Origin: an uncultured Emergencia sp.
GTDB taxonomy: Bacteria; Bacillota; Clostridia; Peptostreptococcales; Anaerovoracaceae
Assembly: GCA_904420065.1 (NCBI GenBank)
Contig: CAJFTU010000015.1
Coordinates: forward strand, 1-39,632
Length of the DNA: 39,632 nucleotides
Direction: 5' to 3'
Under the pieces are notes generated by a model that saw nothing but the letters and a program-made list of their open reading frames with translations, did not search any database and was not told the origin of the DNA. Positions within the stretch are counted from its first letter, which is position 1; each line of letters begins with the position of its first letter. Position numbers and translations under genes: made by a program. Shown here piece by piece: positions 723-10,465 of this stretch.

Positions 723-3700
723 ATGGTAAAAAAGGCAAGGGAGGATTTGCGTCGTACAACTGTTTCTGTATTGATCTTTTTCCTTCTGATTTCCTGCATA
801 CCCGCTCAGGTTTTTGGCGCGGCGATGGAGAAGGGAGACGAGGTTACCATCTCCGAAGGCAAAGAATTGATCGGCGCAGACGGAAAGCCGTATTATCTTG
901 CAGCAGGCTATTATACAGCCCGTTTTTCCAATAGTTCTGGAACGGGTTTTGATTATCGCGTATGTTTGGCCACATCGTCAAAAAATACTCTGGTAATCAA
1001 TAACGGAAAAAGTCGCTATCAAGGATACTGTCTGGAACACGGCGCCTGGATGAACCCGGGATCCACGTCTTATAAGGCTACGGTTACACAGCTAAAAACA
1101 CTGTATTGGCTTAAGCCTTATAGTGAAAGCACGATTAAGTGGATCGAACTGGCGCTTCTGTTCGGCAAACAGCCGGGAATGACACAGAAGGACGTGCCTG
1201 TAGAGGGATGCAATTTAGACGACTGGTATTTTGCGACACAGAATATCATTTGGGAGTTTCAGCAAGGGCTCAGAACGTCGCCGTCATCGATCAAATCCAA
1301 TCCGAAGACTCAGCCGGCGGATTGGTATTCCAAAACGATGAAAGGAAGACCTGCCTATAAGATGTATACCTGGATGCTGAATCAGATGGAAAGGTATGAT
1401 AAGGCGCAGAGTTTTGCTTCGAAAAAGCGTGATAAAGCGCCGCTGCTGAAACTTACCGACAACGGCGACGGAACGTGGAGCGGTACATTTAAGGATACCA
1501 AAAAGGTAGCGCAGAATATCGAAGCGGACAATAAACACGTCACTATTATTCGGAACGGAAACGAATATACCATTTCCACAGATGTCAATCCTGAGGAACT
1601 GGGCACTGTAAAATGCAGAAAAGACGTTCCGGCCGCTAAGATTCGTCAGCCGCTTCTCGCATTTACGACAGGACAAAGCTCGCATATTTCCAATCACTTG
1701 CAGTCGGTGGTATGGGGAGCAAGCGATCCTGTGGAGTTGTTTATCCGCTTGGGTGAAGGAGCGACTCCGGAAGAGAGTGAAGCGCCAGAACCTGAACTGC
1801 CGGATTTTCACCTGGATATTTCAAAGATTGACTTCAATCCTGGATTTGACGGAGATCACGGCACCGGTATGGGTGATGCTGCACTCAATTCGGGTATAAC
1901 GGTAAAAGTAACGACGGACAGCGGGGAAACGGAGGATTACATCGAGCTGGACGAATATGGCAATTCAGAAGGGTTTACCTTTACCCCTTGGCTGGATCTT
2001 TCACAGCTGAAGAGAGAAGTAACTAAAGATGACGAGCATACTTACGTTACCTATACGGCAAAAGCGATTGTATCTACGGAAGAAACTGCTGTCCCGGACG
2101 GAAGATACAAGGAGAGTAAGGAAAGTGGTTCGGGACGGCGGAGTCATACGATAACATATTTTGCTCAGTCAGTCGACAACGGACCGTTTACTTACCGCAT
2201 TGAAGCAGACGGAAAGGTTTACACTGAAATTGGAGAAGAGCCGCTTCTGCTTACGCCTGACCAGTTTGTCAATGATAATTTTAGGGGAAAGCTGCAGATT
2301 ATAAAGACGAAAACCGATCTGGATCCGTTTACCGAGAACAGTGAGGGAGTAACAGGTTCAGAAGGCTCGTCCAGTGAAACCGGTCAGGGATCAGAAAATG
2401 TATCCGAAGGCAAGTATTCTGAACATTCACTGTGGACAGTCAAACTGATCAGCGGTGGCTATGAGGAGTGCCCATATATCAAAGTCGTACCGCTTAAAGA
2501 GGGTGAAGTCGGATATGACAGTTACGCGAAGAATTATCGCGTAGTCAGAAATGAAGAAGGCATTTGTGCCGATGAAAAGAATCCGCTGACGGTTAGCCGT
2601 CATGGGCGGATCAATATCGTCGATCTGCCGTACGGAACCTATGAGGTCAGCGAAATCGCGGCAGACAGTCCGGGATATGTGCTGGAATCCTTTATTATAA
2701 GGGTGACGGATGCCAATCAGGAGATATCCGTATCCGCTCAGAACATTCCAAAGCGAAACAAGATTAAAATTGCGAAGGTAAACAGCGAAACCGGAAAGAC
2801 GGTCCGACTCGAAGGCGCTGTATTCCGTCTGAAATACCTGGGGAATCCTGATTCAGACAGCAAAGAAGAAGACAAGAATTACGGTCGGTATTTGCCCAAT
2901 GGATCTGATCCCCGCGATGGCAGCGACTATATCTTTGCATGCAATGAAAACGGAGAAATCACTTTGCCATATCAGCTTGAATACGGAGACTATCAATTGG
3001 AAGAGCTGATTGTTCCTGAGGGATATTTTGTAGGCGACTACAGTGACATCAAGGAGTTCAATACATATAACTTCAGTGTGAATGAGCAGGAGGCTCATAT
3101 CGATGGTGAAGACTATACGACTTATTATGTGACGGTTAATATGGAGAACAAGCCGGTTAAAGGAAACATCTCTATAACTAAAAAGGGCGAATTTTTCTCC
3201 GGCTGGCAGGAGATACAGAGCGGAGCTCATACGGTTTTGCAGGCCGTATGGGAGAAGGATACACTATCAGGTACAGTGTTTGAAATCTACGCCGCAGAGG
3301 ATATCGAGCAAGTGGACGGAGTGGTTCCGGTAAAGGCCTTTTCTGAAGACGGTACGCCAGTAGAGTTGAAGCTGCTTCACCGGGATCACAGCGAGATTGA
3401 GAATGGGAAAGAAGTGCGCGGCGCAGAGCTGTCTGCCGGCGGAAAAATTACACAGATCAGTGAAAAGGTTGTTTCGGATAAGAATCGGACGACTACAGTA
3501 TACGAAATTTCCGACCAGAATGAAGCTTCGCTTAGAGCCGGCTTTAGCAGAGAAGCTAACGGCATAAGGTGCAGTTATTTGATCGAATGTAAGATGAAAT
3601 ACAGCCCCGGCGGCATGAACTATACAGACGTTCATGTGAAGAGAGAAGCGGCGAGAATTGAGGAGATGCCGGAAGAGGTGACTTTACAGGCGGAAGAGCC

Positions 3701-8850: not shown

Positions 8851-9849
8851 TTAGTTGGACGGCTGACCGGTGGAAATGGAAGAGAAGAAGGCACTGAGAA
8901 ATGCGTTGATTTCTAAATGATGTATTTTATCTTTTTCACTGAGAATCAGATACCCGTTGAATACCGACGGGTATTTTTCTATTGGCGTAAAGTTTTCTCC
9001 GAGGATAGAACGGGCATCGATGTAGAGTGCTCCGGCTTCGCTTTCACATGGTATGGTCAGTTTTGCCGAAGCGTCGGAGCGGCTCATGACCAGAGTATAA
9101 GGTCTCTCTTCTGTGGGAAAAGAAATGTAATCGGTCGGATGATTTTGCAGGCCGGAAACCTGTAGTTCTCTTCCCGACAGGACGATTCTCTGAATCAGGA
9201 AATCGCCGGCAGGAAAACCAAGTTTGAACATCGCCCTGTGGAAGTCTGTCTTTTCGATAATCGGAAGAAGTTTGTACAGCTGCAGCAAATCGTCGTGGTT
9301 GTGAAGCAGTATTTTCTTCTCCAAGTCAAAGGAATGGGAAAGCATATAGCGGTGATACAGTTCAACGCTTTCCCCTCCGGAAATTTCGTCGTCACGGCTG
9401 TCTGACAGACCCATGAAAATTTCCAGGCTTTTCTGCTTCAGACTTGGCAGCGTCTGGCGAAGGGCCGAATGACCGTTGACGACCAGGTACAGATCCAGGT
9501 TATAGGGAAAACGGAAACCGTTTATTCCGTATCTTTTTGCGCGAGCCTCCATAAAAGGCAGATCGAAATGTCTCCCATTGTATGTGAGCATCATATCTAC
9601 GGAATCGAGAAGGTGAAAAGTTTGCCTGATGATTTCCTCTTCGTCATTTTCCTGATCGGCAAAGAGCTGAATAGCGCGGCAGTTCTGTCCGTTTATCAGG
9701 AGAATACCTGACAAGATCACTTTGCAGCGTCTGGGAGACAGGCCGGTGGTTTCGATATCGAATACGGCGATATTTTTTTCTTTGAAGTACATATCGAAGA
9801 GCTTTGAGGCATATGTATCTATATGCATATCGCGGATGATGGTTTTCAT
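8851..9849 (-). CDS. yprB: YprB-like RNase H-fold exonuclease
   Basis: A 332-residue protein whose N-terminal two thirds is a DEDD-type exonuclease domain: Asp31 and Glu33 in FDIETTGL, Asp97 in YNGRHFDLPF, and a last motif HNHDDL at 183-188. This matches the YprB ribonuclease H-like family of Firmicutes. The C-terminal part (about 215-332) has no motif I recognise. The ATG at 9849 has an AGAGGAG site 5 bases upstream. The gene converges on ydbT. Upstream lies the C-rich sRNA candidate on the same strand. Whether it degrades DNA or RNA cannot be told. Confidence 0.85.
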   Translation of the reverse strand: MKTIIRDMHIDTYASKLFDMYFKEKNIAVFDIETTGLSPRRCKVILSGILLINGQNCRAIQLFADQENDEEEIIRQTFHLLDSVDMMLTYNGRHFDLPFMEARAKRYGINGFRFPYNLDLYLVVNGHSALRQTLPSLKQKSLEIFMGLSDSRDDEISGGESVELYHRYMLSHSFDLEKKILLHNHDDLLQLYKLLPIIEKTDFHRAMFKLGFPAGDFLIQRIVLSGRELQVSGLQNHPTDYISFPTEERPYTLVMSRSDASAKLTIPCESEAGALYIDARSILGENFTPIEKYPSVFNGYLILSEKDKIHHLEINAFLSAFFSSISTGQPSN

Positions 9850-9957: not shown

Positions 9958-10051
9958 GATAAAAACAAAATAGACCGCAGGGGTGCAGTCTACTTTGTTC
10001 AAAAGGGGTATTGGGATTAGAGATTAATGAGGTTATCAGGGGGATAACCAC
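9958..10051 (-). ncRNA. candidate C-rich regulatory small RNA
   Basis: Read on the minus strand, a transcript starting near 10051 would be about 90 nt. It begins with a perfect hairpin, GGTTATC (10049-10043) and GATAACC (10037-10031), around a CCCCT loop. An unpaired linker containing ATCCC and ATACCCCTTTT follows. It ends in an intrinsic terminator: AACAAAGTAGACTGCA (9999-9984) pairs with TGCGGTCTATTTTGTT (9979-9964) over 16 positions with two G-T wobbles, loop CCCC, then a U-rich end. Four C-rich segments sit in loops or linker, as in sRNAs such as RsaE/RoxS that bind Shine-Dalgarno sequences. I see no ORF. It could instead be a terminated leader of yprB, whose start lies about 110 bases downstream. 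Family assignment (RsaE/RoxS, CsfG or new) is open. Confidence 0.7.
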
Positions 10052-10057
10052 AATGCA

Positions 10058-10086
10058 ATTATATATAATTTAGTCGAAAAATGCAA
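10058..10086 (-). promoter_or_regulatory. sigma-A promoter driving the C-rich sRNA
   Basis: On the minus strand TTGCAT (10086-10081) and a perfect TATAAT (10063-10058) are separated by exactly 17 bases. The spacing and -10 box are near consensus. Start of transcription is expected about 7 bases on, near 10051, right at the first hairpin. Confidence 0.78.
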
Positions 10087-10204: not shown

Positions 10205-10465
10205 ATGGAAATACTGAAAGTTTCAGCTAAGTCGAATCCGAATTCGGTAGCAGGTGCTTTAGCAGGTGTCTTGAGAGAGAAGGGAGGTGCGGAGATACAG
10301 GCCATAGGTGCGGGAGCTCTGAATCAGGCGATAAAAGCCACCGCCATTGCGAGGGGATTCGTTGCGCCCAGTGGTATAGATCTTGTCTGTGTTCCGGCGT
10401 TTACGGACATAGAAATTGAAGGAGAAGAAAGAACGGCGATCAAGCTTATCGTGGAGCCGAGATAA
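10205..10465 (+). CDS. spoVS: stage V sporulation protein S
   Basis: Exactly 86 residues, the usual length of SpoVS, and the sequence follows the family from end to end (MEILKVSAKSNPNSVAGALA at the start, then the GAGALNQAIKA and FTDIEIEGEERTAIKL motifs). The ATG at 10205 has a GGGAGG site 8 bases upstream. SpoVS is a small DNA- or nucleic-acid-binding protein of the Alba-like fold needed for spore coat and septum progress in Bacillus; many non-sporulating species also keep it. It is a single gene with its own terminator, divergent from the C-rich sRNA. Confidence 0.97.
   Translation: MEILKVSAKSNPNSVAGALAGVLREKGGAEIQAIGAGALNQAIKATAIARGFVAPSGIDLVCVPAFTDIEIEGEERTAIKLIVEPR

Follow-up and report, generated by a model that had tools for sequence, protein, structure and literature searches.

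What does the gap between a yprB-like gene and spoVS encode in the genome of an uncultured Emergencia species? The window, that is the whole stretch of 39,632 nucleotides that was analysed, comes from a bacterium of the family Anaerovoracaceae, order Peptostreptococcales (NCBI taxonomy). The original prediction placed the gene of a C-rich small RNA (sRNA) on the minus strand of this gap, and this raised several questions. Is the RNA a gene of its own, or the leader of its downstream neighbour? Does it belong to a known family? What controls its promoter, and which messages might it act on?

A small transcription unit beside spoVS

Read directly, the minus strand holds a complete small transcription unit at 9961-10086, made of a promoter, a hairpin, a linker and a terminator. 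The yprB-like gene (minus strand, 8851-9849; the name is that of the original prediction, taken over as given) lies downstream on the same strand, and the ORF of spoVS (plus strand, 10205-10465) is the divergent neighbour. The promoter consists of a -35 element TTGCAT (minus strand, 10081-10086) and a -10 element TATAAT (minus strand, 10058-10063) separated by a spacer of 17 nt, with the expected 5' end of the sRNA at about 10051. The expected transcript of about 90 nt (minus strand, 9961-10051), as judged from the sequence, the fold and a model match described below, starts with a hairpin of 7 bp (10031-10049) in which 10049-10043 pair with 10037-10031 and enclose the loop CCCCT at 10042-10038. 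There follow a single-stranded linker (10001-10030), with the core CTCTAATCCCAATACCCCTTTT, and an intrinsic terminator (9961-10000) with a stem of 17 pairs in the fold, a CCCC loop at 9983-9980 and a T tail. The fold leaves the C-rich loop and core unpaired and has an energy of -31.6 kcal/mol, against a mean of -11.75 for shuffled sequences (z -7.69; reached by 0/200 shuffles). The sRNA is single-copy in its own genome. Elsewhere in the window, the left end (1-384) carries a partial 5S rRNA and three tRNAs.

How good is the promoter? It had been called near-perfect, which is right for the -10 element but too generous for TTGCAT, which matches 3/6 positions of TTGACA; the pair is absent from a consensus promoter scan of the window. 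Both elements are nevertheless conserved in the homologous promoters. A TTG at -35 together with at least 4/6 of TATAAT at a spacing of 16-19 is found in 173 of the 178 copies, versus 28/178 when the same rows are read backwards, the rows including one chance match from the phylum sample (L205) and perhaps others like it. We infer that the sRNA is expressed from this promoter. The absence of an ORF, also claimed at first, does not stand: a 59-aa frame opens with a GTG at 10051 and overlaps the sRNA, although it is apparently not conserved. Among relatives, the loop usually has a run of 4, 5, 6 or 7 C, and a stop falls within 75 nt in each frame (in 71 to 157 of the 178 copies, depending on the frame). 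Single-base differences in this run, together with stops in all frames, make a peptide encoded in this frame unlikely, and the coding reading was set aside.

Conservation and distribution of the family

How widespread is this RNA? The core was found with at most 3 mismatches in 71/99 genomes, the own genome included, some of the matches with 3 mismatches being due to chance; in most members of the Anaerovoracaceae the core is exact even when 3 mismatches are allowed. A model of the hairpin plus the core and linker (R1) was built from 66 sequences out of 79 copies, five of them with 5' ends set by hand. It matches the window at 9993-10051 with 87.1 bits, the window copy being among the model's own sequences, and at E<=0.001 it matches 218 of the 297 sampled genomes of the order, eight of these matches being weaker than 1e-5 and doubtful. 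When the class was sampled, 12/196 genomes matched: six belong to the order (one of them weak), one match is strong and looks real (G798, 69 bits), and five others are weak. The sample of the phylum gave 11/348, namely the own genome, one other member of the same family and nine weak matches. Are the weak matches real? All nine from the phylum (22-28 bits) were inspected and lack the hairpin with its C loop. Two of the six weak ones from the class sample (L266 and L268, 23-27 bits) look like chance on inspection, and so does a weak match in the order (L261, in G037). L128, L152, L158, L036, L041, L052 and L139 were dropped from the family as chance matches, the last one being excluded from the hairpin alignment as well.

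An exact-pattern scan of named genomes returned at least 120 loci, with Tissierella, Sedimentibacter, Anaerosalibacter, Alkaliphilus, Romboutsia, Paraclostridium and Tepidibacter represented; three matches in unrelated phyla had no hairpin. One genus of the order (g351) has up to five matches per genome. Judged by these searches, the sRNA is a member of a large conserved family present in some two hundred related bacteria. Could it have travelled on mobile DNA? Viral contigs contain no exact match to the core, and the lone exact match in the plasmid set belongs to an Acetoanaerobium record of 2.6 Mb, probably a chromosome; a mobile-element origin was discarded.

Is the conserved feature the RNA itself? 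Each of the 7 hairpin pairs has changed on both sides, and pairing is seen in 95.8% of the alignment cells, versus at most 54% in slid versions. In the terminator, 100% of the cells pair and 10/16 pairs change on both sides, in an alignment of 25 relatives (24 distinct) that were chosen for equal length out of 107 terminators. The covariation observed in both stems is reached by 0/500 shuffles. Two relatives (L044 and L054) have the hairpin stem replaced and the C-rich loop kept, and a few (L051, L079, L091 and L101) have lost the C loop. The core, TCCCAATACCCCTTTT, is nearly invariant among the collected copies, an invariance that is partly built in, as the core is also the search pattern; divergent copies found by R1 differ in it. 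With its structure conserved by covariation, the element is, on this evidence, one that acts as an RNA, and conservation, covariation and the conserved promoter together rule out a chance origin. The predicted unit of promoter, 7-bp hairpin, linker and terminator between yprB and spoVS is thus confirmed by direct reading, fold and conservation, and the stems and C-rich segments are kept in relatives.

Leader or free-standing gene

The alternative offered at the outset was a terminated yprB leader, which would regulate the yprB-like gene in cis by attenuation. The position in the window agrees with this, and in 94 of 174 loci (a number in which some places are counted twice) the sRNA lies on the same strand directly upstream of a yprB-like gene; in 47 of the 174, spoVS stands divergently beside it. 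However, this position is not constant. No yprB-like gene is found in 43/174 loci, although more than 1.5 kb of downstream sequence is covered there. Paraclostridium benzoelyticum (L192, about 2556-3055) carries the sRNA three times in tandem, at intervals of about 198 nt and each time with a promoter of its own; the promoters are near-identical and the 3' parts differ. In a C. difficile-like genome, the sRNA is flanked by genes that, on inspection by eye, look like glnQ and a cysteine desulfurase gene. The loci without a yprB-like gene and the tandem copies weaken the leader reading, which we now regard as quite improbable. As far as genome positions can tell, the sRNA is free-standing and not merely a yprB leader.

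Comparison with known RNA families

Does this free-standing RNA belong to a known family? RsaE/RoxS and CsfG had been proposed, both of which we take to be represented in Rfam. At the Rfam cut-offs, the window gave nothing at the sRNA and only tRNA and 5S rRNA elsewhere; 20 homologous loci gave no match to the sRNA at the gathering threshold; and RsaE and CsfG are absent from the five loose matches (E<=10) in the window. Membership in either family finds no backing in these covariance-model searches, and the remaining option, a new RNA, gains from them: the family is not listed in Rfam. Among the literature matches listed, which came mostly from outside the subscription journals, no paper on it was found.

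Which known RNAs come closest? RsaE/RoxS RNAs, from Staphylococcus and Bacillus, are small and have C-rich segments in loop and linker. The sRNA is alike in both respects, and its unpaired C-rich segments would be able to cover ribosome sites; it differs in having no match to the family in Rfam even at the loose threshold, so that the likeness is one of working in the same way and not of membership. LhrC of Listeria (RF00616) is the best sRNA among the loose matches, with 21 bits (E 0.66) over the whole element, but its gathering cut-off is 110 bits. The raiA motif RNA is larger and highly structured. It has no match in the window. The likeness here is that of a conserved clostridial RNA linked to sporulation, as an excerpt of PMC11706538 presents raiA (ModT). 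Taken as a whole, the original prediction is partly supported: in a discrete C-rich sRNA gene, its sporulation link (see below) and the option of a new RNA, but not in membership in RsaE/RoxS or CsfG.

Spo0A boxes in the promoter

What controls the sRNA promoter? For the Spo0A box, the consensus used for comparison is TTTGTCGAA, or TTCGACAAA in the reverse direction. The spacer of the window promoter holds a Spo0A-box-like site, TTCGACTAA (minus strand, 10070-10078), with 1 mismatch to the latter. Across the family, an exact TGTCGAA or TTCGACA occurs in 27/178 promoters, versus a mean of 0.66 (maximum 4) after shuffling and 2/178 when the rows are read backwards. Measured from the hairpin, 13 of these boxes are at -27, within the spacer, and 9 are at -47, just upstream of the -35 element, so the two favoured positions are 20 bp apart.

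Do the boxes follow Spo0A itself? The presence of spo0A was tested in 57 genomes, 47 of which have a usable promoter row. The 9-mer box with at most 1 mismatch is found in 23/33 genomes with a full Spo0A_C domain, in 0/6 with a weak one and in 2/8 without it, where the boundary between full and weak (E about 1e-31) was set by us. Within the own family the counts are 11/14 with full Spo0A_C versus 0/10. Fisher tests give 0.00095 for all genomes and 0.00015 for the own family, values to be read with the relatedness of the genomes in mind, which makes these and the other genome counts not independent. A perfect TTTGTCGAA was seen in the promoters of G047 and G054 (L248 and L064), though no Spo0A_C domain was found in these genomes; this is either a recent loss of spo0A or an assembly gap. 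The G054 assembly is about 86% complete.

The boxes indicate that the sRNA promoter is probably under Spo0A control. Their position suggests the direction too: since the commonest box sits between the -35 and -10 elements, repression by Spo0A is the most likely outcome. The link to sporulation, first suspected from the proximity of spoVS, is supported; Spo0A boxes recur at two set distances from the hairpin, for the most part in genomes whose spo0A is intact.

Candidate targets

Which ribosome sites could a C-rich RNA of this kind cover? In the order outside the own genus, the spo0A ribosome site has a run of at least 5 G in 30 of 31 parsed genomes that carry the sRNA (27 in a first set and 3/4 in a second; unparsed loci, 2/30 in the order set and 1/10 in the second set, were left out), G538 being the exception. 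This run is complementary to the sRNA loop by sequence, and pairing in the cell is predicted. The same feature is found in 7/25 genomes from other lineages of the phylum (4/29 unparsed) and in 2/6 members of the order in which no sRNA was found, a small group (2/8 unparsed); a run of at least 5 G is present at 14/162 ribosome sites of other genes, a background that excludes sigE and spoIIGA except for one spoIIGA (L385) among the 14. One further spo0A site (L279) reads G6 by eye and is excluded from the counts. In the own genus, the G-rich spo0A site is present in 0/6 genomes (G012 and five others). On this pattern, spo0A is likely the ancestral target of the sRNA.

What would the RNA act on in Emergencia? 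Among 301 sampled genes of the own genome, covering about 369 kb of 2.41 Mb, so that better targets may be missed, spo0A ranks 65 to 71. The longest match to the linker in this sample is that of sigE, with 11 perfect pairs. A match of 11 nt is reached at sigE alone by 4/5000 shuffled linkers, and somewhere among the sampled genes by 270/1000, which makes it not significant over the sample. The sigE site reads AAAGGGG in 5/5 genomes tested in the own genus; its conservation may be driven by coding, because the end of the spoIIGA frame extends into it. The spoIIGA site itself has at least 5 G in 12/21 parsed genomes (loci L357-L385; 8/29 unparsed ones left out), and at least 4 G in 4/4 parsed genomes of the own genus. 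By this complementarity, sigE and spoIIGA are leads only as targets in Emergencia. The best hairpin match of the 301 genes belongs to a small gene downstream of spo0A (L305 17310-17612, G000 contig 9); 10 nt from the hairpin arm and the loop have their perfect complement in its ribosome site, AGGGGGATAA.

These results also bear on another reading, in which the sRNA is a general C-rich antisense regulator of metabolic or stress genes, much like RsaE/RoxS, with sporulation targets being incidental and Spo0A one of several inputs. The sRNA is retained in genomes without spo0A, including one of the own genus (G010). Because of this persistence, sporulation cannot be its sole role. The strictness of the linker suggests many targets, and spo0A is not a top match in the own genome. 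A general regulator does not account as well for Spo0A boxes that track the presence of spo0A, nor for a G-rich spo0A site that accompanies the sRNA across the order (the sRNA-free group being 6 genomes). We consider this reading possible, if unlikely.

Partners of spo0A in C. difficile and the question of Hfq

Is a comparable RNA known? According to excerpts of PMC10267692, the sRNA SpoY (nc020) of C. difficile blocks the spo0A ribosome site, with Hfq improving its binding to spo0A, and nine further spo0A partners exist in this species (eight sRNAs and one mRNA), eight of them with a read profile like that of SpoY. SpoY and the sRNA described here both fit G-rich ribosome sites. The C. difficile-like genome (G456, which we infer to belong to Clostridioides) has a homologue of the sRNA with 44.5 bits, about 22 kb from spoIIAA as read by eye. 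Is this homologue SpoY? We take tcdB to lie at about 787 kb in strain 630, and published start sites near 786.4 kb, with an incomplete gene name, fit this place. Further anchors come from excerpts of published work: spoIIAA is at 942,481 and spo0A at 1,412,457 in strain 630 (PMC7438776), tcdB is CDIF630_00773 (PMC8400358), spo0A is CDIF630_01363 (PMC11238072), and SpoY has its start site in common with CDIF630_00827 (PMC10267692). Interpolation of locus tags between tcdB and spo0A puts SpoY at about 845-860 kb, and the distance from spoIIAA in this one genome puts the homologue at about 920 kb, some 60-75 kb away. Judged by these different places, the homologue is probably not SpoY. It may instead correspond to one of the remaining spo0A partners.

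SpoY differs in being helped by Hfq, a protein (Pfam PF17209) that was found in 0/27 genomes of the own family (G000 and 26 others) versus 31/36 outside it. Since Hfq was found in none of the 27, the sRNA probably works without it in the Anaerovoracaceae. Could the RNA instead work through a protein, for which it would be a decoy or scaffold, rather than by antisense pairing? A core that is very strict over many families would agree with this, and so would the missing Hfq. The C-rich loop and core are unpaired in the fold and fit G-rich ribosome sites, which speaks for pairing, and we hold a decoy or scaffold to be the least probable of the readings considered.

A possible double-negative switch

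How could these observations be put together? As the best explanation of the whole, we lean towards a C-rich antisense sRNA that is controlled by Spo0A and covers ribosome sites of early sporulation genes, and rate it somewhat better than an even bet. A free-standing, trans-acting RNA of about 90 nt would block translation by pairing, through its C-rich loop and linker, with ribosome-binding sites that are unusually rich in G. Its own promoter would be controlled, most likely repressed, by Spo0A. The sRNA's chief conserved target in most of the order would be the ribosome site of spo0A, giving mutual inhibition: during growth the sRNA would keep Spo0A low, and active Spo0A would turn the sRNA off. 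In the own genus, where the spo0A site is without a G run, the sRNA would probably have other mRNAs as targets, spoIIGA-sigE being the leads. The fullest version of this proposal is bolder: an order-wide double-negative switch with Spo0A, in which the sRNA would block translation of spo0A at a dedicated G-rich site and Spo0A~P would close the sRNA promoter at the spacer box, run without Hfq in the Anaerovoracaceae and rewired in Emergencia from spo0A to spoIIGA-sigE. It is put forward tentatively, and on balance we doubt that it holds in every part.

What would this mean for the biology of these bacteria? The gating of Spo0A is a gap in knowledge that many other clostridia share with C. difficile. 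For the latter, an excerpt of PMC10267692 notes no apparent phosphorelay and calls this gating barely understood. An RNA that is both controlled by Spo0A and represses spo0A would, if true, be a general and directly testable answer to the question of how Spo0A is gated. It would also offer an Hfq-free sRNA system in common gut bacteria, in a family that is absent from Rfam.
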